Assembly (NCBI GenBank): GCA_917880885.1
Contig: OU862915.1
Span: forward strand, 39,068,676 to 39,132,675
Direction of reading: 5' to 3'
DNA: 64,000 nt
DNA from: Limnephilus marmoratus
Taxonomy: Eukaryota > Arthropoda > Insecta > Trichoptera > Limnephilidae
Shown: positions 5,479 to 53,987 of the stretch, piece after piece
How positions within the stretch are numbered: the first letter of the stretch is position 1
Layout: every line of letters starts with the position of its first letter
The notes under the pieces: generated by a model
What the model was told of the DNA's origin: nothing
What the model saw: only the letters and a program-made list of their open reading frames with translations
Databases searched by the model: none
Translations under genes and position numbers: made by a program

Positions 5479-6575
5479 TGTTATGAAAATAATTTATTGT
5501 TCAAAATTACCCCAGGGTTATTAATATTTGTCTATAGTAATAAATTCAATTATTTTACTGGCCGCTTATAGTTTCACCTTTTCTCCGAGTAGTTGTATTT
5601 TCGAACAATAGGGGGATAATGATCGTTTTCCAGCACTTTTTGGATTCGCTTCTTTAGGGCAGGACGTGAATCCGACAGTCGACAATGTGGATTTAAATTT
5701 ACTTAAAATGTAAAATATTAATCGGCGGGTTTTTTTTAATTATTATTTCAATATGTGAACGTTAAGTTTCCTTTTATTCTCAGCCGGTACAAGGTTATCG
5801 CGACTGGAGAATTCTTATTTACGGGTATAATGGCGGTTTGATAGCCAAGTTCAAGCATAATCTGCGATTATATTTACCATCCGTCATTCGACGAGATGGA
5901 TTCTCAATAATACAAAGGGACACAAACCGTCCGTTTAGTCCCCGCCGATTCTTTCCACAACCTGATGGGCCTTTTACCAACCACATGATGGCGGACGCCA
6001 AGGGCATGGCGTTCCCATACTCCACAACTACCCCAGATGGAGGGAGAAGAGCGAGAAACCTGGCGATGATGCAATAGCAAGGGAGGAACGGTCCCCTGGC
6101 TTTGCATCCGGATTCGACGCGGACGTCATAGGTTTTTAGCTAGGATGTAGATATAGTATGGTCCACAGGTACGCATATACTTTCAATATATAATAATCTT
6201 GTTATACATCCACTCTTTTATTTCTTATTCCCAAGCTTCACAACCTTGAATAAAATAACAGTGCCCACGCTCTGATGGGAGTTTTTTCATGCCTACCGAC
6301 ACAGTCAGCATATCTCGTACCTACGAGATTTGGCGTCCAAGATCCCCTGGGATTAAAGCTGATAACTGTGTACGTTTATGTTTTACCCTGTAACTGTATT
6401 TGTAACATTTAATGCACCCACTCAATAAGAGGTGTATATGATATGATAATATCACATAGTAGGTACAAAGATCAACACAACACTTTCCAGTGCCTTACCC
6501 TGATATTGAGATAACCCTAATCAATCTGTACCACAACAAAGTACCCAACCACTCCCTTTCTCTATAACCATAACA
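5479..6575 (+). repeat. 5' LTR
   Basis: It starts TGTTATG and ends CATAACA. It contains AATAAA near 6249 (possible polyadenylation signal) and a GC-richer segment, 5838-6077, with overlapping open frames on both strands. Relative to the 3' LTR it lacks the 26 bp present at 9975-10000 and has a longer CT-rich end (6551-6565). Confidence 0.8.
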
Positions 6576-9624: not shown

Positions 9625-10734
9625 TGTTATGAAAATAATTTATTGTTCAAAATTACCCCAGGGTTATTAATATTTGTCTATAGTAATAAATTCAATTATT
9701 TTACTGGCCGCTTATAGTTTCACTTTTTCTCCGAGTAGTTGTATTTTCGAACAATAGGGGGATAATGATCGTTTTCCAGCACTTTTTGGATTCGCGTCTT
9801 TAGGGCAGGACGTGAATCCGACAGTCGACAATGTGGATTTAAACTTACTTAAAATGTAAAATATTAATCGGCGGGTTTTTTAAAATTATTACTTCAATAT
9901 GTGAACGTTAATTTTCCTTTTATTCGCAGCCGGTACAAGGTTATCGCGGCTGGAGAATTCTTATTTACGGGTATTCCAGTGTAGAATCCCGTGGTGCGAT
10001 AATGGCGGTTTGATAGCCAAGTTCAAGCATAATCTGCGATTATATTTACCATCCGTCATTCGACGAGATGGATTCTCAATAATACAAAGGGATACAAACC
10101 GTCCGTTTAGTCCCCGCCGATTCTTTCCACAACCTGATGGGCTTTTTACCAACCACATGATGGAGGACGCCAAGGGCATGGCGTTCCCATACTCCACAAC
10201 TACCCCAGATGGAGGGAGAAGAGCGAGAAACCTGGCGATGATGCAATAGCAAGGGAGGAACGGTCCCCTGGCTTTGCATCCAGATTCGACGCGGACGTCA
10301 TAGGTTTTTAGCTAGGATGTAGATATAGTATGGTCCACAGGTACGCATATACTTTCAATATATAATAATCTTGTTATACATCCACTCTTTTATTTCTTAT
10401 TCCCAAGCTTCACAACCTTTAATAAAATAACAGCGCCCACGCTCTGATGGGAGTTTTTTCATGCCTACCGACACAGTCAGCATATCTCGTACCTACGAGA
10501 TTTGGCGTCCAAGATCCCTTGGGATTAAAGCTGATAACTGTGTACGTTTATGTTTTACCCTGTAACTGTATTTGTAACATTTAATGCACCCACTCAATAA
10601 GAGGTGTATATGATATGATAATATCACATAGTAGGTACAAAGATCAACACAACACTTTCCAGTGTCTTACCTTGATATTGAGATAACCCTAATCAATCTG
10701 TACCACAAAAAAGTACCCAACCATTACCATAACA
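9625..10734 (+). repeat. 3' LTR
   Basis: It has the same termini as the 5' LTR. It contains the extra 26 bp 9975-10000 and the same bidirectionally open segment (10010-10249), which differs from the 5' LTR frame by two amino-acid changes on the + strand (P to L, A to E). Confidence 0.8.
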
Positions 10735-16254: not shown

Positions 16255-16480
16255 GAACTCGCAACAATAACATTTGGCTGTCATCAGTTTTTTTGTTTTG
16301 CTCTTTCAAAAAATATTCTTAAACCAATCTTTTTATTGTGTTTTGGCTGTAAAAAGTTTAGTGTGTTGGAATCTTCTCCCCCCTGATCTTCCAGGAGTCA
16401 CTTCTTGCTGCTCATTTTCAGATATTTATATAATTTTTTTACTTCTGTCTCTTTTTATATAAGCTGTAATTTTTTGAACA
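16255..16480 (+). promoter_or_regulatory. 5' UTR of the I-type LINE (probable internal promoter region)
   Basis: The sequence between the target duplication and the ORF1 start. LINEs of this type carry an internal promoter here by family knowledge; no specific promoter element is certain. Confidence 0.45.
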
Positions 16481-17905
16481 ATGGAGGAGGATTTCCCTCC
16501 TGTACCCCTTACAAAGCCCCCAGATCCCCCTCCTGACCCTCCAGATGGAGACATTTCAGATAAAATAGACTTTTCAGAACATTCAAACATTTCAGACAAT
16601 GAATCTGTCATCCTAACCTCAATTAAAAAAAGAAAATTTAGTCCCCTTTCCCCAAAAAAACATGATTCGCCTTTGTCTTCTCAGTCCCCTCCAGCTCTTC
16701 CTCAACCTCCTCCAACAATCTTTTACTCTACTCATTCCCGTGGCCCCTACATTGTATATGCGCAAAAAACTGAACAAGGTAAAACCATCCATCCTCTTGA
16801 ATTTGGTAAATTTCTTTCAAATAACAAGAACCTTTCGATTAAACCTGGAGGTGTTAAAGCCGAGGGTCGCTTCCGAATCTCTGTTGAATTCCTGTCAGGT
16901 TCAGCCGCCAACAACTTTATCAAAAATATATTTATTTCATCTAATTCTAAATTCAAGGCGTACATCCCAACTTTCAATGTCACTCGAATGGGCCTGGTCA
17001 GGGGTATCTCGACCGATCTGTCCATTCCAGAAATCCTATCCTCACTTTCAACCCCCCAACATATCGGCAATCCCATAAAAGCCAGGAGGCTAAATTATAA
17101 GGACACCTCTGAGGGCATCGTTTCCTGGAAGCCCTCCCAATCTGTCGTCATCACATTCGAAGGACAATCTCTTCCCTCCCATATTTATTTATTTTTCAAC
17201 TCCTTACCAGTTGAAATGTACACTTATCCCACCACTCAATGTTTCAACTGCTGCCGTTTTGGTCATACCAAAGCTGCATGCAGATCCCCTCCCAGATGTT
17301 TCAAATGTGGAGAAAACCACTCGGCTGACCAATGTTCTTCTCTCTCTTCACCTAAATGTTTTAACTGCTTAGGCGCTCATTCCGCCATTAACTTTTCTTG
17401 CCCCGAACAATCTCGCCAAAAAAATATAAAAATTTCTATGGCCTCTGAGAACTTGTCTTTTCTGCAGGCTTCTAAATTATTCCCGCCTGTCAAAAAATCA
17501 TTTTCCGAGGTTTTAGCCAGTAACTCTTCATCCAACCCTCTCGCCACCTCCTCAACATCTTCCCGTTCAACAAAATTCACATACAAAAACCCTATCTCTA
17601 AACAGGCTCGTGGATACGATCAGCAACAACACAACTCACTTCTCTTAAATCCCAATGGTTCTCCTCTTTCACACGCCACAAATGGGTGCGCAAACAATTA
17701 TAATTCATCTTCAACAAACTATCAAAAGCTTTCTGAACAACTCTCCCAAGATAATTCTTCATTTATTCAAACTCTTATTATGCTTCTAATTGACCTAATT
17801 TCTTCTCAAACTAATCTACCGTCCAACGCTGCTTCTATTATTTCCACATTAAAATCATTTATTCAAAATGGCTCTTCAAGATGTCAGAATTCTTCAGTGG
17901 AATAG
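16481..17905 (+). CDS. LINE ORF1: Gag-like nucleic-acid-binding protein with three zinc knuckles
   Basis: This intact frame encodes 474 residues. The N-terminus is Pro/Ser-rich. Residues about 100-235 resemble the RNA-binding region of I/jockey ORF1 proteins. Three CCHC-type knuckles follow, beginning near residues 254 (CFNCCRFGHTKAAC), 273 (CFKCGENHSADQC) and 293 (CFNCLGAHSAINFSC), and then a Ser/Asn-rich tail. ORF1 proteins coat the element RNA to form the retrotransposition particle. The start is the first Met after the 5' UTR (ACAATGG context). The 3' end overlaps the ORF2 start by 38 nt. No lesions are seen. Confidence 0.9.
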   Translation: MEEDFPPVPLTKPPDPPPDPPDGDISDKIDFSEHSNISDNESVILTSIKKRKFSPLSPKKHDSPLSSQSPPALPQPPPTIFYSTHSRGPYIVYAQKTEQGKTIHPLEFGKFLSNNKNLSIKPGGVKAEGRFRISVEFLSGSAANNFIKNIFISSNSKFKAYIPTFNVTRMGLVRGISTDLSIPEILSSLSTPQHIGNPIKARRLNYKDTSEGIVSWKPSQSVVITFEGQSLPSHIYLFFNSLPVEMYTYPTTQCFNCCRFGHTKAACRSPPRCFKCGENHSADQCSSLSSPKCFNCLGAHSAINFSCPEQSRQKNIKISMASENLSFLQASKLFPPVKKSFSEVLASNSSSNPLATSSTSSRSTKFTYKNPISKQARGYDQQQHNSLLLNPNGSPLSHATNGCANNYNSSSTNYQKLSEQLSQDNSSFIQTLIMLLIDLISSQTNLPSNAASIISTLKSFIQNGSSRCQNSSVE

Positions 17906-19628
17906 CCGCAGTGCTATTTCTAACAAATCAAACCTTCTTAACCTATAAAATTCAAACCTTATTTCTGTGGCTGCTGTCTCGGAGACATGGTTTACTCCAT
18001 CCACCCACTTTAATGTGGGAGGGTACTCCTGTCTCCGCGATGATCGCCCGGAAGGTACGGGCGGTGGTGCTGCCCTTTTTATTAAAAAATCCCTTCCGTT
18101 TTTCCCAATAAATAATATCAAACCCCCCAATGCTGACTTTCAAATGGTTGCAGCTAAAATAAAGGACACTTCCTTTGTTTCTATCTATCTTCCCCCAACA
18201 TCGCACTTCAATAAACAAGCGTGGTTGCAAATTGTCCGTCAACTAAGCCCTCCTTTCTATTTATTGGGTGATTTTAATGCCCATTCCCCCGTCTGGGGTT
18301 CTGCTTTCTGTGATCGAGACGGTCGAAGTGTGATGGATTTCCTAGATGAATCCAACCTTTTTCTTTTGAATGACGGATCTCCTACTAGAATCTCTCGCCC
18401 CAACACAAACCCCAGTGCAGTGGATCTCTCCATATGCTCTATTAATCTGGCACCTCTCTCCTCGTGGGTGGTGTCCCCCGACCCCTGCTCCAGTGATCAT
18501 TTCCCGATCACCATCACTTATCAAACTTCTTTCCATTCAGAAAAGGCCCATATTTCGACAAAGATTAAAACAAAACACACCAAATGGGACGAATTTAACT
18601 CACATATGGATAAGTTTATACAAAATTTATCCTATACCGATACATTATCTGTCAAAGATGACTACGATAACTTCAAATCAATGCTCGTAACTGCAATCAA
18701 TAAATCAAATCCTCCCCCTAAAACCAAATCTCTCAAAAAACTTCCTCCATCTCCCTGGTGGGATGAGGAATGTTCCAAAGTAGTGAGAATTCGGAAAGCT
18801 AAATCTCTTTCCTATCGTCACAATATGACTATGGAGAACTATCTCATATACAAAAATGCCGAAGCCAATGCCAAAAGGGTATTGAGGTCAAAAAAAAAAT
18901 CCGGGTGGTACAACTTCTGCAGTTCAGTATCTCCGAACACTCCAATTTCGGAAGTTTGGTCTATGATTCGAAGATTTCGATCCTCCTTCGGTCCAACATC
19001 TCCTCGAGCTTCTCATTCTAAATGGATAGACGAGTTCTTGGACAAAATTGCCCCCCCTTCTGTACCTAACTTAGATGAAATAACTCCAATCCACAACACT
19101 CCTATGTCTGATCATTGGCTTGACTCTCCATTCACTTTAATTGAATTAAAAAATTGTTTATCAACAGTCAAGGACTCATCTCCAGGCAGAGATGGTATAC
19201 CTTATAGCATTATCAAAAATAGTAATGATAATGTTCTAAATCACTTTTTAAGCATCTTAAATAAAATCTTCCAGACTGGCATAATACCTGATGACTGGAG
19301 TTCTCAAATAATCATCCCAATTCTAAAATTAAACAAATCACCCAATTCTGGATCCAACTATAGGCCAATTGCTCTTTTATCCACCCTTAGTAAAATTTAT
19401 GAAAAATTAATTAAAAACCGGTTAGAATTTTTTGTCGAGAGTAATCATCTTCTCTCTCCATCCCAATTTGGATTTAGGAAAAAGAAATCTACACAAGATA
19501 ACCTCGCCATCATCAGCACTGATATTAATTTATCCATTTCTAACAAAGAAGTATGTCTTGCAGTCTTTATAGACATAGAAGGCGCCTTTGACAATGTTTC
19601 CATCCCAATTCTTAAAAAAAACTTTTAG
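17868..19628 (+). pseudogene. LINE ORF2, first part: APE-type endonuclease and N-terminal RT
   Basis: Translation should start at the ATG at 17868 (MALQDVRILQWNSRSA), overlapping ORF1. It meets an in-frame TAA at 17946 and is open again to 19628. Endonuclease motifs are QWN, SETWF, GDFNAHSPVWGS and SDHFPI. RT motifs follow: GRDGIPYSII, NYRPIALLSTLSKIYEKLI, SQFGFRKKKSTQDN and FIDIEGAFDNV. The frame is lost in the A8 run at about 19613-19620, where the open frame shifts to the one that begins at 19646. Endonuclease nicks target DNA and RT copies the RNA from the nick. Two lesions make this copy non-autonomous as it stands. Confidence 0.88.
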
Positions 19629-19645
19629 GCCTTGGCTTACCCCTC

Positions 19646-21607
19646 ATGTTTGTCCAATCTATTATTAATCTTTTTCTCGATAGGAAAATTTTCATTGAGC
19701 TACCAGATGTTACTCCTCAGAGTAGGTCAATTTGGAAGGGTTTACCCCAAGGCGATGTATTATCCCCCTTACTGTATAATATATACACACACGATATGCA
19801 TGTCACCATTCCCCCTCAAGTAAAAGTTGTTGAGTTCGCAGATGACATAGCTTTCTTCTTATCATCCAAAATCATTCCTTCCGCCGTCAAATATCTTAAT
19901 GAAGCCATGGATGCCCTTTGCACATGGCTTACTTTAAATGGTCTTGAACTTTCAGTACAAAAGAGTCAGTGTGTTACCTTCTCAAATCGTCATAATAACC
20001 CCCCTGTTCAAATTTTATTTAAAAACTCTCCAATCCCCAATGCTTCCGAAGTAAAATTTTTGGGAGTAACATTTGATAGGAAACTTAAATGGTCTTCCCA
20101 CATTAATAATATAGTTACTAAATGTGAAAAAAATTTAAATATTATCAGATCATTGACTGGCGTTTGGTGGGGTGCTCATCCTATCTGCATTAAGTTGCTC
20201 TACAATGCACTTATTCGAAGTCATCTCGACTATGCCTGCCCACTTTTTAGTACTGCATCCAAAAATGCACTCAGTAAATTAGACAAAATTCAATCTAAGT
20301 CATTGCGAATAATAACTGGCGCGATGCAATCGTCGCCCATCAATTCCCTTCAAGTAGAATGTTCTGATCCTCCTCTTTATTTAAGGCGTCAATTATTTGC
20401 TGACAAATTTGTTCTTAAATGTTTAAATTCTAAAAGTCATCAGATTATTCCCAGATTCTCGTTGTTCAACGACTCAACACATTCATCTACAATCAGAGCT
20501 CGAACTAAACCTCTCCCTGCCATCTGTAAAAATTTTCGCTCTCTCTCAGAGCTTCAAATTATCAAAAATGATCTTCTTCCTTTGTACAAATTAAAATATA
20601 GTCACGTCACCCTATCCCCAACGATTTTAGAAGGGATCGGCATCCTTAAAAGTCATTCCAATCTCCCAGCCCGTACTGTCAATAATATGTTCAATGACAT
20701 TATTTCTTCTAAATGGCCCAACTCTTCTCTTTTATTTACTGATGGCTCCAAATCTCCGGACTCTCCTAACTGTGGTATTGGTATTAACGTTTACCACAAT
20801 AATTCTAATGAAAGAATATTTTATTCAATTTCAAACCAATTTTCAATATTTTCTGCCGAGTGCATTGCGATTATTGAATCTCTCAAATATATAATAAAAA
20901 ATAATTTTGAACATTCTCTTGTTCTCTCTGACTCTCTCAGTTCCCTCCAAAAACTTAAAACAAGTCCTCTTCTTCATCCTGATGATCACTTTGTATGTCT
21001 TATTCGAGTATTGATAACCTCCATTCAAAGCTCTGGAAAAACTGTCACTCTGATTTGGATTCCTGGACATGTTGGCATAGTGGGTAACGATATTGCTGAT
21101 TCCTTGGCAAAACAAGGAGCGTCTAACCCTACCGTTACCCTCGTAAACCATATTCCCCTGTCTGATATTTTTTCCATCATCAAAGATAGATCCCGCAATG
21201 ATTGGACAGAGCATTGGAACATTGCTAGTCAATCCAAGGGTGCCCGCTACGCCTCAATACAAAGGACTATCCCATCAAAACCGTGGTTTCAAAAATTCCC
21301 CCATTTTTTCAAAAAAGAAATCTCCTTACTTATTCGTATGAGAATCGGACATTGTTCCGTTCCTTCTCACCTTTATAAAATTCATGTGCTTGACTCCCCA
21401 GATTGTACGTTCTGTGGTCTAGATGTGGGAACTTTAGATCACATATTTTTTGATTGTCCCTCTCTAAATAAATATCCTCTCTTCTATCAAGCGTTATCAA
21501 AAATTGCCTCTCCTCCATTCAACATCTCATCTCTTCTAAGTCTGAACTCTACTCCAATCTTCCTTAAAATTCTGAAATTTGCACATTTAAATAAAATTAA
21601 TATATAA
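19646..21607 (+). pseudogene. LINE ORF2, second part: RT core, RNase H, C-terminal zinc motif
   Basis: A 653-codon open frame continuing ORF2 after a one-step frameshift. The RT catalytic block is GLPQGDVLSPLLYNIYTHDM, with FADD at codons about 64-67 (FADD instead of YADD), then FLGVTFDRKLKWSSHI. RNase H spans about codons 362-495: FTDGSKS, SAECIAIIESL, LSDSLSSL, WIPGHVGIVGNDIAD. The C-terminus has CTFCGLDVGTLDHIFFDC. The Met at 19646 is internal and not a natural start. RNase H downstream of RT supports membership of the I group. Confidence 0.88.
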
Positions 21608-25153: not shown

Positions 25154-25290
25154 TGTGAAGACCGAGTTGCAGAACAGCGGCGCGCTGTCTCGACTGTACA
25201 TAGCCAACGCGGCGCGCAAGGACTCCGGCAACTATACGTGCTCGCTTGATGACGTTTCCGCCACTACCGTATCCGTGCACGTGCTCAGAG
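25154..25290 (+). CDS. dpr-like: dpr-like gene, penultimate coding exon (end of an Ig domain)
   Basis: This 137-bp GC-rich exon lies between a strong acceptor (TTTTTCCATTGCAG, ending 25153) and a GT donor at 25291. Its first base completes a codon. It then encodes VKTELQNSGALSRLYIANAA, RKDSGNYTCSLDD and VSATTVSVHVLRG, with the last Gly codon split. DSGNYTC is the Ig-domain cysteine motif; SRLYI.NA and VSVHVL.G are typical of the second Ig domain of Dpr proteins. These are neuronal cell-surface proteins that pair with DIP partners in synaptic specificity. The phase fits the exon at 33933 exactly. Upstream exons are not in the window or were not recognised. The specific paralogue is unknown. 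Confidence 0.85.
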
Positions 25291-25387
25291 GTGACAATAA
25301 TCTTATATGTAAAGTTGAATACGTGTATTTTCAACCCAAAGTGTTGAGAAAAAGGAGAACTTCTATGTTCTTTTTTTAGGGCTTGTG

Positions 25388-25640
25388 AATATTTTATGGT
25401 TTTTCTCAGGGCCTATGACATATTTGGGGAACCTGTGTGGAGGGTGTTTTTGAGGAAAGAAGGAGAGGAAGTTCTGGGAAGAATAAGAATATGAGGAATG
25501 GGTAGGAATCTGAGGGTCAGTGTGTTCAGGAATACCTATGAATCCATCCCCCCACTGCGGTGCAAGGCTACCACTCCAGAGAGTCCGGCCGGAGAGATCA
25601 AAAGATTCAACTGGCCCCCTCGATCCGACGTAGATGAGGA
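25388..25640 (-). repeat. Family X, 3' part
   Basis: On the minus strand it runs from TCCGGCCGGACTCTC and AGCCTTGCACCGCAG to CCAAATATGTCATAGGCCC. It lacks the family 5' end. It lies about 100 bp inside the dpr intron. Confidence 0.7.
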
Positions 25641-26109
25641 ATAAGTAGGAATCAGGCGGGGAATACCTATTAATGAACTTCGTTTGGAATGGAGTGAAAT
25701 TAATGTGGTCCTCCTATTTTACAGTTATTTACCTTTTTCGACTAGGTGAAGGTTCTCTTTTTTACCGCCGGAACTTCTGAACTTTGGCACAGGTCGCCTC
25801 AAATTGTTCGCTAGGTTTGGGGGACGTGGCTAAGGATTATTGAAGAGTGGGGGAAGGAGACAGAACAGACAGTGAAAGGAAACATGTCGAAGATGGGGCT
25901 GAAAGATAATATTTTTTTGTTGACAATGGACATATTATTATTAACGGATTTCTTTATTTCTAAGGCTTCTAGATTATCTAAACGTTTTCCCATATTATTA
26001 GTAAGAAGAATATTTATCCCTGTATTTTTTCAAACCCATGATTATTTGCAAAGTTTAAATAATCTTCGATTCTAATGTCGAAATTAAAAGTTATTTTCCA
26101 GTTTTTAAC

Positions 26110-26466
26110 CGCCCGTGTTCCTGGGGTGAGGTTTGTCCGGGGCTTGGCAGCGGGTGCGTCTGCCCACCAACTGCGTAGCAGGCCGGATCGGGAGATACTG
26201 ATTGAGTGAGACCTTTAGATCTCTCCAGCAGGACTCTTTCAAAACACCGCCTTGCACCGCAATGGGAGGGTTGGATTCACACGTCCGTGATTCCTGGACA
26301 CACTGTCTCCAGAGTCCCACCCAACCCTCAAACCTTTTTCCATCCCAGAACTTCTTCTCCAGCATTTTCTAAAAAGACCCTCCACGCAGCATCCCTAAAG
26401 TTGTCATATGAACGTCGAAGGGAATTATTTTCCTCGTGGCCTCCTGTACAGAATTAACGTAAAAAA
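26110..26466 (+). repeat. Family X, 5'-truncated copy
   Basis: GTTCCTGGGGTGAGGTTTGT through GCCGGATCGGGAGA, CACCGCAATGGGAGGG and CGCAGCATCCC to the 3' TTATTTTCCTCGTGGCCTCC and an A-rich end. Confidence 0.75.
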
Positions 26467-26599
26467 TTATATTTTTGATACTGACTATTCGTGGCGTAAA
26501 TTCATTGAGTATAATAATATATTAAAAAGAATTGGCCAGTCTGGAGATGGCTTTAACAGGCTGAAACCGGTTACGGTCACAAATAAATAAAGTGAAAAA

Positions 26600-27435
26600 A
26601 AAAATAATTGATGAAGTTAAAAAAAATGCTGAAAATAAAAACTGCCGTTTTTATCCTTTGAATTGTGACCTACCAGAAATTTTAGTTTTCTGTTTCTGTT
26701 CGTAATCAATTAAAAAAATCCTAGAATGTCATATTTATACAGCGCCCTTGAGGGACGTTTTTCACGAAAACTTTAACTCGACAAAAAGTTTAAAAACTGT
26801 CCTATTATTATTGTGAAAGCCGGTTCATTACCATTAACCTTGTACGCTCTAATTTTCCCATTTAAAACACGCCAAATGTAAAGGCTAAAGGAAAAAAATT
26901 AAAAAAGGTCAAACGAAAACCTCACCAAACTATATATTTGATCCGATATAAACCCAAAACAAAACAGCTTTCCTGAAAACGACTTTCATGAACGACATCA
27001 AAAAATATGTACAAAGATCATAAAATGATTAAATCGTTAAAAACATCAAAGTACTAATTATTTTGTATAATACGTTTCAAATTCACATTTACGATAAAAA
27101 CTTTTAATGCTGACTTAAAAGTTACTGGCTTAATCACGAATTCTGTGGATTTTCTAAGAATCTCGTATTAAACTTGGTTCGTAAATTAAGGAAAATATAT
27201 TTTTTAAATTTATTTCTTAACAGAAATTTTATTTCTTAGGAAAAAGAACAACAGACAAAATAGCCTGATATAGCAGACCGTAATTAAATAATTGGTTTTG
27301 TTATGGATCCTTGAATGAATTTTAAGATAATTTTATTTGTTTTGAATTCTTTTTAACATACTTTTCTGTGGTTCCTTTTTTCATCTGGTCACACTTTAGT
27401 CGGTTACTTTTTTTACAATAGCTCCACTCAGACTT
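26600..27435. other. Intronic AT-rich DNA, nothing recognised
   Basis: Just upstream (26520-26590) the motif CTGAAACCGGTTACGGTC resembles ends of common insect interspersed repeats. Beyond that, no structure is seen. Confidence 0.35.
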
Positions 27436-27758
27436 CTTTGAAGATCATGTGTGGAGGATTTGTTTAGGGAAAAGAAGGAGAGAAAGTCCTGGGAAGGAAA
27501 AATGTATGATAAATGCATAGGATGTCAATGTTTTCAGGAGTGACGGACGTCCGGCTGGAAAGGTCTAAGTTAAGTCTCCTTCAACCAGTCTCTCACGATC
27601 CGGCCCGCCACGCGTTAGGTGGGCAAACGCTTTGGCCACCCCTGTAAGTCATCAAACGGAGCAAACCACTTGGGGTGACCAATGGCAGAGTTGTTAGTTT
27701 ATTTTCCAATAAATGGTTCCCGGGGCGGCTGTACCCAAACCGGTCTCCCAAATTAAAA
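27436..27758 (-). repeat. Family X, nearly complete copy with internal deletion
   Basis: It reaches the family 5' end on the minus strand (TTTAATTTGGGAGACCGG at 27758) and includes the CCACTTGGGGTGACC and GATCCGGC blocks. About 100 bp around the central Ser/Pro block is missing. Confidence 0.75.
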
Positions 27759-27769
27759 TACTTTATATT

Positions 27770-28610
27770 CCTCATGGGAATCTATAGCTACGGTTTTTAA
27801 ATACCCGGTTTCGACACAGATTTCTAAATCAATTTTTTTGTTTTTTACTGAATTTTTGAAAAATATTTATTTTGGAAAAGGCGGCGGGTTTTATATTTTA
27901 ATAATGACTTGTTTTTAGCCAAATTTTGTAGTTTATGACAGAAATGATTCGACGGATTTGAAATTACATATTTTTTCATGTAAATTCAAATTAGAAAAAT
28001 TGTGTAAATTTTGTATCCCCAAAACTCAGTGCTCAGTTTTTTACGCTTCATATTATCAAACATTTGCAAATATGACTATTATTAGTAAATATAACTAGCA
28101 TCTATCTTGCAACGAGTTAAAATAATCTTCAAACTAAAAACATTTCTTTATCATTTCTTCAAAGTTTATGTCGTAAAGCCGTTTCGTCCATAAGCTACTT
28201 TAACTGTGCTATTTTGTCAACTCCCCTTAATAATAATAATAACTTTCTTATCCGGAGAAGGCACAAATTATAAATTAGCCCGCGGCAAGAAATCGTACAA
28301 CTTTCGCCGTTCTGTTGAGATGCTAAGTCGATTGGCGAAATGGGGGAAGGTCCTCCAAAAGTAGAATTATTACTAGAAGAAGGTCCTTCTTATCAAAGTC
28401 TTCTTTATGTCTCGAGTTTCGCGGCTTAGGAAGGCTTAGAAATGTTAAATTGGAAAATTACTAAAATGCGCGTCTTATGTTGAATTTGACGTATAATGAG
28501 AGGAGACTTTATCGACAGATACTCTTAGTATTGTCATGAATGTCATGATGTTAAATAAAATATCATGGTTATGATGAAAATCGGGACGGTTTAAAAATTA
28601 TAACTTTTCT
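27770..28610. other. Intronic DNA, nothing recognised
   Basis: AT-rich, no motif-bearing frames, no terminal repeats seen. Confidence 0.35.
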
Positions 28611-28611
28611 A

Positions 28612-28897
28612 AACTAACTAACCATTACGCCGTTTCCCCGCAGGCAGAGAGGACGGACCGCAAAACAACTCGAGCTTAGCACTCACTCCTTGCCTCGTTC
28701 ACGTTCATACATCGTCTCATACATGCTCTTCGATTATTCCGACTCTTCACATGGCCCGACTCATGTATCTGATTCACTTGGTCGTGCCTTGTCTTCCTCG
28801 GGCGTCCCCGACTTCTCCTACCATTCACATTTGCGTCATATATTCTCCATACACTGCTTTCCTCGTTCATTCGCTCTACATGCCCAAACCATCTGAG
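28612..28897 (-). pseudogene. RTE-type LINE 3' fragment
   Basis: The minus strand reads MNEESSVWRIYDANVNGRRS, RGRPRKTRHDQVNQIHESGH and RNNRRACMRRCMNVNEAR, matching the family member at 21695-22566 and ending in the same GTTAG tail (28612). 5'-truncated. Confidence 0.75.
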
Positions 28898-29724
28898 CGT
28901 CCCTTAGGTCCCGAAATTCAAAAATTGTTAAGAGACAAATTAATCAGGTTTAACCCATGTGACACTGAATCACTTCTACACATAAAAATAAACATTTCAC
29001 CACCGTCTACATACCTGACCTTATGATAGGTACGGTCACGGATAGGTCACGGTGTCCGAAGCATTGGCTAAAGAAAAAGTAAGCACTACACGACATGTTA
29101 CTTCAAATAAATAACGTTTATAAAATGTTTCGTTCGTTAATAAATTCCCTATAGGTAATTAATTTATTTACTTATGTGCTAAAAGTATTCAATATATAAT
29201 TAACTTTCCCCGTGTATGAGGGAAATTCATCGGTCGTTTTGTGTTTATTTTGTCGTCAAATGCCTTCTTCAGTAAAAAGCCTCGGTAACAGGAAGCAACA
29301 ATGGAAGTGCCTGTACTTGTTGTTCAAAGAAAAATTTTCAGACGTTTCTTTTCATCTTACGTATACCGCTGTAAACATCGACACAGCTTGGGGAGGTTAA
29401 AATTCTGCAAACTAAACAAGAAAACCATTAAAGTGTGAAGAATATTAACAAACTTTTACAAAAATTTCTTTAAAAAACTACGAAATAATTTCCACGATGT
29501 AAATTGTATCAGTCACAATGGTAGGACTGATAAAAAATTATATATAAATGGACAGAGTGCATTATCAACTAGAGGTACTTTAAACATTAGAAGCCCTCGG
29601 GTCAAGAAAAAAGCGAGAAAAATATGTACATATTTCTAATTTTCTCTCATTCCATAAACCGATACCAATTTTTCTCAGAATTCGTAAGATTTTTATCCGG
29701 TTTATTTATTTATTTTTTAAAACT
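28898..29724. other. Intronic DNA, nothing recognised
   Basis: No motif-bearing frame or repeat structure seen. Confidence 0.35.
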
Positions 29725-29870
29725 TATTTAGAATCGTTGTGATTTGAAACTCGATGAAACGGAAACGAGCGACACTAAAAAGAGACAAACTATTATATCT
29801 ACAGGATTTAGCCTGCGAGAGGAGACAGCAATAAAATATTTATTTTGTTCACGGGTACTCGGTTCCAATG
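29725..29870. repeat. Family E interspersed repeat
   Basis: GCGACACTAAAAAGAGACAA and flanking TCGATGAAACGG recur at 50940-50980. ATCTACAGGATTTAGCCTG recurs in altered form at 51683-51705. Confidence 0.5.
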
Positions 29871-29894
29871 TAAAGCGATAAATTCACAGTCCCA

Positions 29895-30020
29895 TGCAAA
29901 CCTCCTTCGGTGCAGTGGTATAAAGAACCTCAAGAATCTCAGCGGTCAGATATTCAGGGACCAAGGTTCAAATCCTACGAAAGCCAAAAAATAAAAATAA
30001 TTTCTAACTTTCTTCAGACG
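29895..30020 (+). repeat. tRNA-like SINE head
   Basis: A-box-like CGGTGCAGTGGTATA and B-box GGTTCAAATCC (about 29965-29975), followed by an A/T-rich tail. Not part of SINE-A or SINE-B by its body. A degraded tRNA-derived SINE is likely. Confidence 0.4.
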
Positions 30021-30329
30021 TGTGGGTACATGTAGGCAGTGGTGTAGCGAGGGGGGGCGGTCTGTTATTTATATTTTCGTAACTCTATGGCTCGGTAGGT
30101 CTTTGATAGGCGGTCTAGCTTATATTCTGAAATTCTCTAGCCACCCCCCCCTCCCCCCATCCCAGGTTGGACCAATTTTATGAAGTCGAAATTAGCGTTA
30201 TAGGGGGGGTGACACTACTCCCCGGTACCCTAATATAACAACTCCGGTTCGACATTTCGTGGAAGGATCCGCGCTCATGCGAAATCTGGAGGATAATAGC
30301 AGTATCAAATTCGACCACGATCTTGAAAC

Positions 30330-30630
30330 GGATAAGGAACGTAGAAACAAATTTACGGACGGATTAAATGCCAAACCTAAATCAGGACTTTGCTGAGATT
30401 TCTGTGGCGTATGTGTATGTACGACCGCATGGCAAATGAGGTGATCTGGAAATAATGCTAGGACAATGAAGCATTATAAATAAGTTTAAGAAAGGGATGC
30501 TTAAATAGTTTAAACGTGTAGGATGGAAAGAAGGCGACGGAGTGTCAGAAATAATTGACGTGCAAGTAAAAGAAGTAGAAAAATGACACGGTATCAACAA
30601 GTGAAACCAATATCGACAGTTGGTCAATGA
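30330..30630 (+). pseudogene. RTE-type LINE fragment, left of a family X insertion
   Basis: A highly decayed copy of the family at 21695: TTTCTGTGGCGTATGTGTAT aligns with CGTTCGTGTGGTAAAACC, and AAGAAAGGGATGC.TA.ATGG and AAACGTGTAGGATGGA follow. It continues after 31074. Confidence 0.6.
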
Positions 30631-31074
30631 TCAATTTGGGATGCGGTGTGGTATCGCCGACCCGCATTTATTGGATAACCAATACCTCTGCCATAGGTCA
30701 CCCCAGGTGGTTCGCCACGTTTAGTAGGGGTAGATTTAGCAGTTCATCGGGTAAGGTGTATTCAGGCCTTGACAGCGGATGCGCCTATCCATTAACAGCT
30801 TTGTGGGCCGAATTTGGAGGGGCCGGTTCGGAGAGACCCTTTGACCTCTCCGGCTGGTCTCTATCGACTCATTGCCTTGCACCGCAGCAGGAGTGATGGA
30901 TTCATACATTCATCACTCCTGGACACTTTGACTCCTAGATTCCTATCCACCCCTTATTCCTTTTTCCTACCCAGAACTTCCTCTCCTTCGTTCCCTTGAA
31001 AAGACTCGTCGCACAGCATCTCCAAAGATGACATAGACGTTGGGGACTTCCCGTGAGAAGTTACTATAAAAAAA
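30631..31074 (+). repeat. Family X, full-length copy inserted in an RTE LINE
   Basis: It starts TCAATTTGGGATGCGG and ends in an A7 tail (31067-31074). It includes TTGGATAACCAATACCTCTG, CACCCCAGGTGG, CCTCTCCGGCTGG and CACAGCATCTCCAAAGATG. The RTE sequence resumes directly after the tail, so X is younger than that RTE copy. Confidence 0.8.
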
Positions 31075-31245
31075 TAGCAGAAAAGTCGGCGACGAACCAG
31101 GAAGACGTGGCACAACCAAGTCAATCACGAACTAGAGTTGGATCACGTCAATATTCATAGAAAAGTATGTGCAAGACGATGTATTAACGTGAATGAAGTA
31201 AGGGGTGTAAGCCAACGTGACGTGAAAAATGGCGTGACGGTTAGT
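31075..31245 (+). pseudogene. RTE-type LINE fragment, right of the family X insertion
   Basis: AAGTCGGCGACGAACCAGGA, AAGACGTGGCACAACCAAGT, TGCAAGACGATGTATTAACG and TGAATGAAGTAAG match the 3' region of the copy at 21695-22566 and end at a GTTAGTAAATTA tail. Confidence 0.7.
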
Positions 31246-31397
31246 AAATTACTTATTGTCATTTCGTTGAGGTTATTAATATTATAATATAATAATGGTG
31301 CCCAATGTTTTAATTATCTGATTCATTAATCTTTTAACGTTCATTAACACGCGATGTTAAATATTTATACACGTCAAAATGAGCTTTTATGGATTCT

Positions 31398-31676
31398 AGG
31401 AATTGAATCCACGATGCCGGGGTGGGAAACCACTCAAAAAATCAGATAAATTAAAAAATATGTTGCCTTTTAAATAAGAGATTACTATTTTAGTTTTGCG
31501 GCTCGAATAGATCCCCAAAACCTACGAACTCAAGGATTAATGAAACTGTTTTAGCCAATAAACCGTGGAGGCTCTATTTAAAAGCAATTACCATTCATTC
31601 TCCTCTGACATATTGAATTATCTCGCTTTACCGATATTATCCTCTTCAATTCCTAATGCGAAATGAATTGAAAATT
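31398..31676 (+). repeat. Left arm of a perfect 279-bp inverted repeat
   Basis: By base-by-base comparison this arm is the exact reverse complement of 32577-32855, with no mismatch or gap. Outer end AGGAATTGAATCCAC, inner end GAATTGAAAATT. It lies in the last dpr intron. Confidence 0.95.
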
Positions 31677-31984
31677 TATATAATCTAGGCCTGCTATAAA
31701 CTTTCGATTAAAACTCGATCTATAATAATTATTAAGTAAAATTTACTTCTTTAAACATCATAGACAAATTTTAAAGTAAGCTAACCATGTTAGTGTATTT
31801 TATAGTACATTGTACATATTTTGAAACCTTCCGAACTTTACATCAATTTCTAGAAAATTCTACGCACGCTAAATCAATAAATAATGATACAGGGAGTGGT
31901 GTTGACAACTTCCTACTAACGTTCATTTTAGTGCGTGTTATCCAGTTTTTAGCGAATTTATGGACTATTACCTCGTAATCTTGA

Positions 31985-32330
31985 TCAACTGTTGGCGTTG
32001 ATTTAGATACTTCTTCTTCTTGTGCCCTGTCCAACATGATAGCCAACGGACGTTGGCTATCATGTTGGCTATGCGGACTTTGTTTACTACGGCCCGGAAC
32101 AGCTCTACGGTCGATTGGCCAAACCACTGTCACAGGTTTTTCAGCCACGAGGTTCTCCTTCTTCCAGGGCCCCGTCTTCCGGCAATCTTTCCTGCATTGT
32201 ATGAGATGCAAGATCTCATACTTCTCTAGATGTCTCATCACATGTCCAAGATATTGAAGTTTTCCGATTTTTATAGTTTTAATTACTTCTTTTTCATTCG
32301 AAACATAAGATATTCATTCATTCTATTTAG
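31985..32330 (-). pseudogene. RTE-like LINE ORF2 C-terminal fragment
   Basis: The minus strand reads GKLQYLGHVMRHLEKYEILH, LIQCRKDC, WPIDRRAVPGRSKQSPHSQH and DRAQEEE. The YLGHVMR..KYE.L.LI block and the acidic end after IANV are typical of a LINE ORF2 tail also seen on the plus strand at 39260-39675. About 15 residues near the end are disturbed by the hairpin duplication. Confidence 0.65.
32031..32068. repeat. Perfect 18-bp stem hairpin, 2-nt spacer
   Basis: CCAACATGATAGCCAACG, GA, CGTTGGCTATCATGTTGG. It sits inside the loop of the 279-bp inverted repeat and inside the LINE fragment, and probably arose by a local inverted duplication. Confidence 0.9.
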
Positions 32331-32576
32331 ATACTTGATTGATTGAAAACAACCTTTGCACCATTCATTCCGTAATATTTGATCCTCAAATCGTGCAAAA
32401 AAATTGCAATAGGTGGCACGCGAGCTGTTTGAAAACTGAATGTATGGAATGCGGGAGGGTAACTCGGTTAGGGAACGTACCCATACTACGTGACACGTTT
32501 AGGGGGGGGGGGGAGTCTTCAAAATGTCACGCTCCATACAAATAAGCGGCGGGTTGCTTAGGTTTTTGGTCACAAC

Positions 32577-32855
32577 AATTTTCAATTCATTTCGCATTAG
32601 GAATTGAAGAGGATAATATCGGTAAAGCGAGATAATTCAATATGTCAGAGGAGAATGAATGGTAATTGCTTTTAAATAGAGCCTCCACGGTTTATTGGCT
32701 AAAACAGTTTCATTAATCCTTGAGTTCGTAGGTTTTGGGGATCTATTCGAGCCGCAAAACTAAAATAGTAATCTCTTATTTAAAAGGCAACATATTTTTT
32801 AATTTATCTGATTTTTTGAGTGGTTTCCCACCCCGGCATCGTGGATTCAATTCCT
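32577..32855 (-). repeat. Right arm of the perfect 279-bp inverted repeat
   Basis: Exact reverse complement of 31398-31676. At its outer end the sequence continues for about 110 bp as SINE-B (TTCCTCGGCT onward), whereas the left arm stops within that motif. The right copy is therefore probably the original and the left one the inverted duplicate. Confidence 0.95.
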
Positions 32856-32940
32856 CGGCTAGCGAAATTACAAGCAACCTTTTTCACTTATTGCAATGGT
32901 AGCAGTTTTTCGAGTGTTGTCAACTTATTTTTCTTTCTTT
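32815..32940 (+). repeat. SINE-B copy, cut by the inverted-repeat breakpoint
   Basis: TTTTTGAGTGGTTTCCCACC, GATTCAATTCCTCGGCT (B-box region), TATTGCAATGGTAGCAG and GTGTTGTCAAC match the family. The head is shortened. Confidence 0.6.
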
Positions 32941-33077
32941 AAAAACGTCTTTTCTGGTGGAAATAACGATCGTCTAGCACAGTAAAATCGGTAAGTTTAC
33001 AATATCAGATTGATAGACGTAACTACCGACGATTTTGTATCGATTTCCCGATCACGGTTTTACTGGTGACAGCCGAA

Positions 33078-33369
33078 TCGAGGGTCTTTTGAGGGAAAGG
33101 TAGGAGATGAAGTTCTGGGAAGGAAAAATGTATGAGAGGTGGGTAGGAATATGGAGATCCACCCATCCCACTGCTGTGTGAGGCGACGGGTCGAGAGAGT
33201 CCGGCTGGAAAGGTCAAACGCATCCGCCACCAAGACCTAAAAAAACCCCTTGAACCCGGGAACCCCTGCTAGGGTCACCAAACGTAGCTAGCCACTTGGG
33301 AAGGATGTTGGTTATGCAATAAATGGTTCCTGGGGCGGCGCGGCGGTCCCATACCGGCCGCGAAATATA
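33078..33369 (-). repeat. Family X copy
   Basis: GGCGGCGCGGCGGTCCCATA (5' end on minus) through CCACTTGGGAAGGATG, GAGAGTCCGGCTGGAAAGG and GAGGGAAAGGTAGGAG. It lacks the last part of the 3' end, with the stem-loop. Confidence 0.75.
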
Positions 33370-33404
33370 CTCATATATGTAAAATATTGACATATGTAAA
33401 GTTG

Positions 33405-33820
33405 ACCAGTTTCGATTCAGTCTGAACCTTCCTCAGGGCTTTTTTCGTTATTTGTTTTTGGGGTGTTATGCCGTGTTGCGCTACCTCCTTCTTGAGCCAA
33501 CATTTCGGACAACGTTGTAGTGTGCATCATCAGGGCAGATTCGGCAAATCCGGTAGATGTGTGACACATCTATTTGAGGGCTGTATTTAATTCATGACAT
33601 TATGTTTTTACGGCGTCCGAAACGTTGTCTAAAGAAGGAGGTAGCCCAACACGGCATAACACCCAAAAACAAATACGAAAATACTTTTGGCCGTGAAAAT
33701 CTTAAAACGTATCTTCCTCAGGGCTATATAAAAACATAATGTCATGAATTAAATACAGCCCTTAAGTACATACTGCTCTGAGGAAGGATCAGGTTAAACC
33801 GAAACCGATTGGTGTTGGAA
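33405..33820. mobile_element. Compound foldback (family F) just upstream of the dpr acceptor
   Basis: Three inverted pairs are visible: 33408-33440 with about 33779-33815 (GACCAGTTTCGATT / CCGAAACCGATTGG, CCTTCCTCAG / CTGAGGAAGG); 33442-33508 with 33616-33684 (about 90% identical); 33577-33613 with about 33727-33763 (near perfect, TTAATTCATGACATTATG). The last two interleave. A related piece lies at 40305-40395. It ends about 115 bp before the splice acceptor. Confidence 0.7.
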
Positions 33821-33932
33821 ATAAACTGGCTTTCAAACTAAATATTCATTTTCATTAAAATTTCAAAATATGTAATTAATTTGTAAAATTTGTTTTATCT
33901 CAATTGTAAGGTTTGTTTGTTTTTCTTTTCAG

Positions 33933-34009
33933 GAGAAAACCCCCTGGCAATGCAAAGAGGCTGCGCTTCCCTCTTTATTCCACCTCTTCTTCTTCTAATG
34001 GCCAGCTGA
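33933..34009 (+). CDS. dpr-like: dpr-like gene, terminal coding exon
   Basis: The acceptor TTTTTCTTTTCAG ends at 33932. The exon's first two bases complete the Gly codon begun at 25290, then encode ENPLAMQRGCASLFIPPLLL LMAS, with stop TGA at 34007-34009. GEN/H-P-x-AMQ after the last Ig strand is a hallmark of Dpr proteins. The hydrophobic LFIPPLLLLM end suggests a GPI-anchor signal or short membrane tail, so the protein would sit outside the neuronal plasma membrane. Frame and phase agree exactly with the exon at 25154-25290. The coding region ends here, so everything downstream is 3' UTR or intergenic. Confidence 0.85.
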
Positions 34010-34864: not shown

Positions 34865-35515
34865 CAGTACACACTTTAATGAAGGCCGATAAATACCCAT
34901 TTTAATAGAAGGCATTTGAAACAATATACCCGCTGATGGAAGGAATTTATTACAATACTATACAATTTAATGGAAGGAATGCAATACAGCATTACACACT
35001 TTAATAAAAGGAATTAAATACAACATTACTCATTTTAATAGAAGGCATTCGATACAACATTAAACACCCTCTAATAGAAGAAATTTAACACGATATTAAT
35101 AGAAGGAATACAATACAATATTAAATACTTTAATAAAATGCAATAAATACGACATTACTCATTTTAATAGAAGTCATTCAATCCAAAATCCCTGTAAAAG
35201 AAGAAATTTAATACAATATTACATAATTTATTAGAAGGAATACAATACAACTTTACATACAAAACATACTTTCAATACAAAATTACATACTTTTATAGAA
35301 AGCCTTCAATACAAAATTACACCCTCCAAGAGAAGAAATTTAATCCAACATTACACAATTTATTAGAAGGAATACAAAACAACATTACATACTTTAATAA
35401 AAGGCATTCAATACAACAGTACACACATAAAACAGAAGGCATTCAATACAAAATTAAACACTTTATTAGAAGGAATTTGGGACAACATTACATTACATTT
35501 TACTACGAAGAAAGT
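34865..35515. repeat. Degenerate satellite of about 35-40-bp units
   Basis: Roughly 16-18 irregular units built on TTTAATAGAAGGCATTCAAT, then ACAACATTACACAC, drift along 650 bp. Unit length and sequence vary, and no clean spacers exist. It lies about 0.9 kb downstream of the dpr stop. Confidence 0.75.
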
Positions 35516-39259: not shown

Positions 39260-39675
39260 ATCCAGACCCAGATGTAGAGGTTAGGTGCAGAATTGAAGCA
39301 GCAAGAACTGCATTCAGTAAAATGAAATCCCTCTTCTTAAATTCTTCTTTTTGACATGATCACCAACACATGAATTCTCAGGCGGGCCAGAGCAGGTAGA
39401 GAACTGCTTACATTGATAAAATTCAGCAAGATTTCATATCTGGCTCACGTACTTCTAGGAGAGAAGTGTCACTTGCTCCGATTAATATTGAAAGGCAAGA
39501 TAGAGGGTCGCCGAAGGCCTGGTAGGAGACAAATGTCTTGGCTGCGAAATGTATGAGAGTGGAGCGGCATTAGAAGTGTGGAGGAGCTATTCCGGGCAGC
39601 GCATGACAGCGGGACATTTTCCAGAGTGATCGCCAACGTCGGGGGAACCTGATAGGGCGCACCAAGAAGAAGAAT
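39260..39675 (+). pseudogene. RTE-like LINE ORF2 C-terminal fragment
   Basis: Broken frames read HPDPDVEVRCRIEAARTAFS, KISYLAHVLLGEKCHLLRLI, LKGKIEGRRRPGRRQMSWL, EELFRAAHDSGTFSRVIANV and end in an AGAAGAAGAA tract. It has the same ORF tail type as 31985-32330 on the other strand. Stops and at least one frameshift are present. Confidence 0.7.
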
Positions 39676-44288: not shown

Positions 44289-44688
44289 CGACCTCCGTAG
44301 TCGAGTGGTTAAGACTCTTGACTCACAATCCGGAGGTCGCGGGTTCGAACCCGGCATGCGCAAATAAATTTTATTTGATTAATTTGTGTTATTTCACAAT
44401 TAATTCATTTAAAATATTATATAGTATATTTGCGGCATGTTCCAGAGTGGAAGATACTATCAGTATCGCCCTGGTGTAAGACCACCATTCAGAATTGAAA
44501 CGTTGCTTGAAAATGGCTTTAACCGTGTTTAGTGACCAGATCTGAATAGCCAGGTACTTCCCAACCTTCCTCTTCCCCACCTCCTTCCCCTCCCCACTAC
44601 CTTCAGCCTCACAACATACCCCAATTGGGGATGCCATAGTCTCACTGGCTCCAGACGGGAGCAGTTGAGATTCTTGTGCGGTATTCAC

Positions 44689-44719
<31 letters not shown>
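44289..44719 (+). repeat. SINE-A, full-length reference copy
   Basis: tRNA-like head with A box TAGTCGAGTGG (44298-44308) and B box GGTTCGAACCC (44342-44352), i.e. an internal RNA polymerase III promoter. The body carries GTGTTATTTCACAATTAATT, TTTGCGGCATGTTCCAGAG, AGTATCGCCCTGGTG, a CT-rich tract, CCCCAATTGGGGATGCCATA and CTCCAGACGGGAGCAG. A 28-A tail occupies 44692-44719. The long intact A tail and good pol III boxes suggest recent activity. The partner LINE is unknown. Confidence 0.85.
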
Positions 44720-48320: not shown

Positions 48321-49135
48321 GGAAGGAGATATATTCAATAGGTAGAATAATGTTCTTTTCAAATAAATCAAGTTTATTGATACTTCGCATATACAGTGTT
48401 GACGACGATAGTCGACCTATCTAGGAACTGGCTAATTGGGATCTGAGGTGAGAGCAGTGAGAGTGTGAGAGATCTGCTGAAGACTGCCTCTGAGCTGGTG
48501 GACCCTCTGTTGCCCAAAGCCTGTACTAAGAACAGTTCTTAGTACTGCCATCTACGAGAGTAAGCAGGAAGCTTTTAAATACACTACAGTTTAGAAACCT
48601 AAAAACTAAACATATCTGTCTATGCTAACGACATATATTGAAGGATGTTGAAAATGCACGTGTAATGTATACAGATACCACAGTGTTTTTTATCATTTCA
48701 CGGATACTTTTAACTCTTTCAGCACTACACATTTGTAGGTTTTCGCGGTTCTACCTATACAAAAGGTTTTAAAAATTAAAAGTAATTTATTTCAACAGTT
48801 CTTTACGTACGCTTGTACATGAACATTGTGCAATTGAAGTGTTAAATGACGTACGCATTATCTAACTGTTAAATTTAATTGATTCAAAACGACACTGGTT
48901 GAAAAGCGTAAATCCAAATCGAGACAAGAATGCACGTTGCGCATTTTATCAGCATACATGCAAATCATTTTAAAGAGGACATTTATTAATGTATTTGTGT
49001 ACTCCAACAGTATCGAAAGTTTCAAAAAAGTTTTTTTTAACTAGTTTGAAACATCCACTTTCTGTCCCTTCTTATCTCGCAAATACCGAAAGATATTGGG
49101 TGCGACAATTCGACAATGTTTATTTTTTATTTTTT
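48321..49135. other. Intergenic; one perfect 11-bp palindrome
   Basis: GTACTAAGAAC, A, GTTCTTAGTAC lies at about 48521-48543. Otherwise nothing recognised. Confidence 0.4.
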
Positions 49136-49142
49136 TATGAAT

Positions 49143-49535
49143 ACCGCACAAGAGTCCCAACTGCTCCCGTCTGGAGCCAGTGAGACTATGGCATCCCCGA
49201 TTGGGGTATGTTGTGAGGCTGATGGCAGTGGGGATGGGAAGGAGATGGGGAAGGGGAAGGTGGGGAAGTACCTGGCTATTCAGATCTGATCAAAAAGCCA
49301 TTTCAGGCAACGTTTCAATTCTGAACGGTGGTCTTACGCCAGGGTGATACTGAGAGTATCTTCAACTCTGAAACGTGCCGCAAATATACTATACCCGTAT
49401 ATTATTGTAAATGAATTAATTAATTGTGAAATAACACAAATTAATCAAATAAATTTTATTTGCCACGCCGGGATTCGATCTCGCGACCTTAGGATTGCGA
49501 GTCAAGAGCCTTGCCGCTAGACCACGCTGGCCGTC
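49143..49535 (-). repeat. SINE-A, full-length copy
   Basis: From CCGCACAAGAGTCCCAACTG through the GAAGGGGAAGG tract and CTGAAACGTGCCGCAAATAT to the tRNA head in reverse (GGGATTCGATCTCGCGACC; GCCGCTAGACCACGCTGGCC). Confidence 0.85.
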
Positions 49536-53104: not shown

Positions 53105-53110
53105 GTGACC

Positions 53111-53311
53111 CGACAATTCGTCCTGCGACAATTCATCCGGCGACAGTTCATCCTGCGACAGTTCATCCGGCCGACAGTTCATCCTGCCAACAGTTCATCC
53201 TGCCGACAGTTCATCCCGCCGACAATTCATCCGGCGACAATTCATCCTGCCTGATCATTTAGAAGATTTTTATTAAGTAAGTATGCAAAGAGGATATACG
53301 GCCGTACAACC
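53111..53311 (+). repeat. Left arm of foldback: 15-bp minisatellite plus unique end
   Basis: About ten units of GACAATTCATCCGGC / GACAGTTCATCCTGC type (53111-53252), then a unique stretch TGATCATTTAGAAGATTTTT, GTATGCAAAGAGGATATACG, GCCGTACAACC. It is an inverted counterpart of 53786-53987. Confidence 0.85.
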
Positions 53312-53380
53312 AAAATCGATATACTTATATCTGAAGGCATCTTGAGTGGAAATCCGCTGTAAAAATATTTTTACTAAATA

Positions 53381-53399
53381 GGTTAGGTTAGGTTAGGTT
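53381..53399 (+). repeat. Interstitial telomeric repeat, short
   Basis: GGTTAGGTTAGGTTAGGTT, the insect telomere motif TTAGG, followed by a T run. Inside the foldback loop. Confidence 0.9.
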
Positions 53400-53685
53400 T
53401 TTTTTTTTTTCCTGAATGTTCTTTCTATTATATACCTTACACTGCGGAGTAATTCAGTTTGAAAAACAGAATTAAACCAAACGCTTGTACGCACCGAATG
53501 TAATCAGATTTATTTATTTTTTTGTGCAAATTTGTGCAACTTGACGTGGATCGAAAGGAAAAATATTTATAATGAGTTTAGAATGAATTTAAATGCGAAG
53601 GAATTTAATTGTGATTGAAGCTAAACAACGGAATATTATTTTAAAATTTCTTACTGTTTGCTTTTCGGCTGGTGAAAGAACACTC

Positions 53686-53790
53686 GGTTAGGTTAGGTTA
53701 GGTTAGGTGAGGTTAGGTTAGGTTAGGTTAGGTTAGGTTAGGTAAGGTTAGGTTAGGTTAGGTAAGGTTAGGTTAGGTTAGGTTAGGTTG
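53686..53790 (+). repeat. Interstitial telomeric repeat array (TTAGG-type)
   Basis: About 20 GGTTA units with only occasional variants (GGTGA, GGTAA). It directly abuts the right arm of the foldback. It is internal, so not a chromosome end. Confidence 0.92.
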
Positions 53791-53987
53791 TACGGCCGTA
53801 TATCCTCTTTGCATACTTACTTGAAGAAAAAATCTTCTAAATGATCAGGCAGGATGAATTGTCGCCGGATGAATTGTCGGCGGGATGAACTGTCGGCAGG
53901 ATGAACTGTCGGCAGGATGAACTGTCGGCCGGATGAACTGTCGCAGGATGAACTGTCGCCGGATGAATTGTCGCAGGATGAACTGTC
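53786..53987 (-). repeat. Right arm of foldback: inverted minisatellite plus unique end
   Basis: GGTTGTACGGCCGTATATCC, TCTTTGCATACTTACTTG and TCTTCTAAATGATCAGGCAG mirror the left arm, then about ten GGATGAACTGTCGGCA-type units. Unit order differs slightly from the left arm, showing expansion after inversion. Confidence 0.85.

Follow-up and report, generated by a model that had tools for sequence, protein, structure and literature searches.

The window, a 64-kb stretch of DNA (C10:39068676-39132675), holds the last two coding pieces of a dpr-like gene and, in the intron between them (25291-33932, 8,642 bp, with GT...AG borders), both arms of an inverted repeat. The two coding pieces join in frame (VLR to GENPLAMQ...MAS*). 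In a PDB search, the joined piece matched Dpr4 (6eg0, E 9.1e-7), which was alone among 16 matches in having a stretch that passed independently; by whole-sequence E-value, CEA 1e07 and the opioid-binding cell adhesion molecule 5uv6, both also Ig proteins, were marginally better than Dpr4. A Pfam search of the 70-aa piece gave no match. The gene is best labelled dpr-like, on the basis of the Dpr4 match and of a C-terminal motif that we take to be dpr-type, and it is on this motif that the name dpr leans. About 0.9 kb downstream of the stop codon lies a diverged tandem array of 34-bp units (34939-35492).

An earlier note on this DNA had described two 279-bp arms that are exact reverse complements of each other around a 900-bp spacer, and remeasurement returned the same arm coordinates, length, identity (100%, 279/279), spacer and intronic location (Table 1). 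The arms were said to end about 1.1 kb before the terminal splice acceptor; the distance from the right arm end to the acceptor is 1,077 bp.

Table 1. Coordinates of the inverted repeat, the contents of its spacer and the flanking coding pieces in the window.
Feature	Coordinates	Strand	Description
dpr-like exon	25154..25290	+	End of the second Ig domain; Dpr4 match (PDB 6eg0); splice check
Left arm	31398..31676	+	279 bp; putative source copy; exact reverse complement of 32577-32855
Spacer (RNA loop)	31677..32576	.	900 bp; holds the LINE tail and the broken MITE
Presumed non-LTR retrotransposon 3' tail	32008..32330	-	Frame break and stop, GAA-rich end; approximate bounds; translation GKIAGRRGPGRRRTSWLKNL*QWFGQSTVELFRAVVNKVRIANMIANVRW
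MITE 5' part	32469..32573	+	TIR MITE, TIR AGGGAACGTACCCATACTACGTGAC; cut at 32573, right before the place of the second G-run
Filler	32574..32576	+	AAC, 3 bp; between the MITE break and the right arm
Right arm	32577..32855	-	279 bp; putative derived (inserted) copy; exact reverse complement of the left arm
Last coding part, dpr-like gene	33933..34009	+	Stop 34007-34009; joined reading frame ends GENPLAMQRGCASLFIPPLLLLMAS*

The arms and their flanks

A pair of this length cannot be due to chance, since the longest exact inverted match was 14-20 nt in Markov-simulated windows (n=20) and the runner-up in the real window was 82 nt. The earlier note had set the pair apart from all other repeat pairs in the window, which were said to diverge by several percent; this stands for pairs of at least 80 bp found by BLAST, the scope to which it has to be narrowed, with the next best pairs at 96.1% and 95.9%. 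Across 264 kb examined piece by piece (the window and 20 stretches of 10 kb, half of which adjoin it), the 31398/32577 pair was the sole inverted pair of at least 80 bp with more than 98% identity, a single case that gives no rate because the set takes in the ascertained pair.

The window carries several other repeats. An inverted repeat of 205 bp and 96% identity at 53110-53987 has a 16-bp minisatellite facing opposite ways on the two sides of (GGTTA)n of about 21 units, and so amounts to an interstitial TTAGG-type repeat framed by inverted minisatellites. A direct repeat of about 1.1 kb (5479-6551 and 9625-10723, 95.9% identity) has its two starts about 4 kb apart. A dispersed family at 44296-44709, 49119-49526 and 61617-62024 is perhaps a tRNA-derived SINE; the start of the copy at 44296-44709 matched the Rfam tRNA model weakly (29.9 bits).

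We searched the arm against the window's own genome, 1.63 Gb in 67 contigs. Two matches were returned at E<=0.001, both at the locus itself, in a search that skips very common words, which makes the absence of repeats strong and not absolute. Because these matches are the two arms alone, the arm is, judged by its sequence, no visible repeat family. A query that took in the left arm together with its outer flank and the adjoining part of the spacer (31216-32008) had no matches but itself and the right arm (2 candidates, both scored), so the left arm looks like native intron DNA. When compared locally with 200 kb at higher sensitivity, the left flank gave one 38-nt match at 82%, and the right outer flank (32856-33060) had no further match in the genome search, in which 40 of 1,479 first-look candidates were scored.

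The arm ends are abrupt. All four inverted flank alignments, outer and inner, scored below the shuffle mean and gave no homology past the arm ends. A direct comparison of the flanks was likewise below the shuffle mean, and no exact target-site duplication adjoins the unit. Within the arm, the 8-mer GAATTGAA occurs at 31400-31407, 31645-31652 and 31665-31672, once inverted, and thus near both arm ends; 0.2% of window segments of arm length share some 8-mer likewise. Besides an inner 10-bp inverted repeat, the arm thus has an 8-bp direct repeat near both ends, and as much is seen in 124 of 62,607 segments of the window and in 3 of 7,250 of the intron. These inner repeats first pointed to one ancestral site of 14 bp with two microhomologies, an idea that was dropped, the inner right junction being occupied by the MITE break.

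We also considered the arm as a viral or bacterial piece and rejected it. A 15-mer gave 12 matches in viral_contigs, none extending beyond 27 nt at 89%, while a 22-mer had no match in viral_contigs, a 20-mer none in genome_contigs and viral_contigs, and a plasmid search none for the arm. No RNA family was found in the arm at gathering scores (a sub-threshold snR75 match, 14.8 bits, E 4.5, reaches the inner end), and no tRNA gene was found in it.

The spacer and the MITE break

Two mobile-element pieces lie in the spacer. The first we assign, by a motif, to what is presumably a non-LTR retrotransposon. This LINE tail has translated similarity to another copy at 39494-39638 and gave no Pfam match. 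Long non-LTR retrotransposon frames also lie at 16478-21604, where an ORF1-like frame, with zinc knuckles by eye and no Pfam match, is followed by endonuclease, RT and RNase H across two overlapping frames.

The second piece is a MITE that stops short. A complete copy (L020) measures about 170 bp. A genome search with 32330-33060, in which 40 of 1,479 first-look candidates were scored, returned 46 rows: one each for the window and the left arm, 38 for MITE copies and 6 for short pieces within the MITE 5' part. All 38 copies end their match at query position 244, which is window position 32573, and the 18 copies that were fetched past this point all run on into a G-run and then TTAAAAATTGCAAAAAGTTGGTCACGTAGTATGGGTACGTTCCCT or near it. 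At the break the window reads GGTCAC-AAC-right arm; the filler AAC is absent at the corresponding place in the fetched MITE copies and is not arm sequence.

A further set came from the pattern GGTCAC followed by A or T, which had 137 matches, including the window's own, against 0 for the control. We fetched 20 of the 137, namely the first ten of each kind (A or T); the 3' TIR was present in 20/20, with a strict, immediate G-run in 13 and a later-starting or interrupted one in 7. By a common looser test, 40/40 fetched copies that reach the break continue with G-run and 3' TIR (33/40 by the strict G-run test, the 7 failures having a G-run with an early interruption or with its start 1-3 bases farther on), although these 40 were chosen by match, which biases them toward intact copies, and five share flanks (L038/L044; L054/L056/L057).

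A 200-kb sample taken irrespective of the MITE held two other copies, L020, which is whole, and L023, which is cut 11 bp earlier than the window's. No close local inverted copy follows the L023 truncation; within 30 kb, a direct match of 106 nt at 69% and one match of 23 nt were all that turned up. Elsewhere in the genome, one copy of the same family (L036, G000:C28:13418170) sits inside a TTAGG-type tract, with the start of another copy close by.

Origin of the inverted repeat

We propose that the repeat is probably a recent templated inverted insertion, made when a break in a young MITE, itself lying in the last dpr-like intron, was repaired. A break would have arisen inside the MITE within this intron, and repair or replication synthesis would have reached ...GGTCAC in the element before switching to intron DNA about 1 kb upstream, with the left arm as template. 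From there, 279 bp would have been copied in reverse orientation to give the right arm, and the copied strand would have been joined farther downstream, with loss of the MITE 3' part and with 3 bp (AAC) left at the junction. The insertion itself presumably cut the MITE, and the pathway was presumably MMBIR-like switching or polymerase-theta-type joining. Polymerase-theta inserts in C. elegans are mostly tens of bases long. In other copies, the second G-run starts at the position of this break; that it acted as the trigger is speculative.

The locus has the features of a templated insertion: an exact reverse complement of nearby DNA that is no independent mobile repeat, beside a disrupted recipient MITE. 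Where microhomology might mark such an event, the inner junction bears the 3-bp filler. The earlier note had listed a very recent inverted duplication among its alternatives, and that reading is now favoured by an arm found nowhere else in the genome, by its sharp ends and by a right arm that takes the place of the MITE end. The duplication looks recent because the arms differ at 0/279 positions (95% bound 1.07%). It would have come after the insertion of the young MITE, since the arms have no difference and the MITE differs from the consensus of 18 fetched best-scoring relatives at 2/108 sites plus one gap position, a figure biased low by that choice.

The direction, with the left arm as source and the right as derived, we infer from the sequence; both outer flanks look unique at search sensitivity, and polarity is indicated by the MITE alone. 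Against it, a 6-bp direct repeat, TCTAGG, of which one copy overlaps the left arm's outer edge and the other starts 8 bp past the inner edge, could hint at an insertion on the left. It also counts against the templated insertion that the MITE cut could be of earlier date and adjoin the arm by mere chance, since truncated copies such as L023 exist; by our rough estimate this has a minimal chance.

The order of arm, spacer and inverted arm is exactly what a 900-bp microinversion with one staggered breakpoint would yield, a 279-bp overhang being filled in so that the same DNA lies at both segment ends, and a staggered-break model of this kind is among those that PMC7584159 describes for Drosophila inversions. 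A microinversion that cut the MITE should, however, have put the missing half across the other breakpoint, and the exact 3' TIR core of the MITE is absent from the 64-kb window. It would therefore need an added deletion or an older truncation, and we consider it unlikely, while allowing it some weight. Gene conversion between the arms, another of the earlier alternatives, would presuppose an older inverted repeat and the later removal of all differences between its arms by conversion or by template switching from one to the other, and inverted-repeat arms are homogenised elsewhere, in cases treated in PMC8604942. The perfect tract here has no diverged homology past it on either side, though, and the right arm edge is 3 bp from the break in a young MITE. 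This disfavours conversion, which we judge distinctly improbable.

The overall layout would also fit a non-autonomous 1,458-bp transposon with 279-bp terminal inverted repeats (Foldback, MULE, P/Galileo or Polinton-like), and Galileo bears long terminal inverted repeats according to the account in PMC4168063. The idea is largely refuted by the lack of other matches to the arms in the genome search (E<=0.001); the unit is, moreover, not bounded by a target-site duplication, and its spacer is a patchwork of a LINE tail and a partial MITE. We give it next to no credence. An assembly error, that is, a chimeric or mis-resolved join, is decidedly unlikely for a genome of 1.63 Gb in 67 contigs, with a contig of 59 Mb here, which suggests a long-read assembly, and a cut MITE with a 3-bp filler resembles a biological junction.

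Possible hairpin RNA and known systems

In the predicted fold of the unit, 279/279 arm positions pair with their exact partners (-724.5 kcal/mol), as those of any perfect repeat would. A transcript through the intron would carry a 279-bp perfect stem as a consequence of the arm sequence. Such a stem may be a source of siRNA (hpRNA) or an ADAR substrate, and the default is that the inverted repeat is neutral. A third role raised earlier, as a promoter of circular RNA, is disfavoured: both arms lie in one intron with no exon recognised between them, and exon circularisation is for that reason not supported. The long 900-bp spacer may explain the persistence of the repeat, as palindrome instability declines with lengthening spacer in the systems that PMC7999016 covers.

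A selected hairpin-RNA locus, its stem diced into regulatory siRNAs, would be compatible with any origin. The complete pairing of the arms in the predicted fold speaks for it, as does the gain of many hpRNAs in D. simulans that PMC10317233 describes, and the repeat is a long inverted one able to form dsRNA. On the other side, the genome search revealed no second arm match that could serve as a target at its sensitivity (E<=0.001), the arm has no long open frame, and a mutational origin suffices without function. We think such a locus very improbable. The same low standing goes to a broader idea, that the G-runs of an abundant young MITE are weak points whose repair seeds long perfect intronic hairpins, with a share of these hairpins going on to be siRNA or ADAR substrates of genes like dpr.

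The locus suggests that no selection is needed for a long perfect hairpin to arise, one repair step in a mobile element with a template in the same intron being enough. With the arm and the recipient both identifiable, direction and age become testable in a population. It also advises caution, for perfect intronic inverted repeats need not mean function, whether as hpRNA or circRNA.

The kind of mutation proposed is known, and its length here appears unusual. Template switching creates hairpins, as PMC8794818 relates, and PMC4654259 and PMC7368036 both document break repair with templated inserts. In great apes, the four-point template-switch mutations treated in PMC7954356 likewise insert the reverse complement of nearby DNA at one site, often leaving a perfect inverted repeat and a hairpin. 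Those events have a median of 12 bp and a maximum of 128 bp, with the template within 100 nt, whereas here 279 bp would have come from about 1 kb away with loss of recipient DNA. By our comparison this reach beyond the short ape switches counts against a templated insertion; the present copy exceeds the ape events in length, and its recipient can be read.

Closer in size are the breakpoints of the D. subobscura O7 inversion, where PMC7584159 describes inverted duplications of 534/540 bp, explicable by staggered breaks or by MMBIR with end joining; the duplicates are of some hundred bp as here, whereas no chromosomal inversion is seen at our locus. The C. elegans G-quadruplex deletions with polymerase-theta inserts of PMC4654259 share with it a junction at a G-run edge, a deletion and a templated-looking insert. 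In those deletions, as that source presents them, the 3' junction is fixed and the loss extends upstream from the G-rich DNA. Our locus instead retains the 5' side and lacks the G-run and the 3' side, and it is this opposite polarity that leaves the G-run trigger a speculation. Drosophila hpRNA loci, in the account of PMC10317233, resemble the locus in being long, near-perfect inverted repeats able to give dsRNA; ours differs in lying within an intron of a coding gene.
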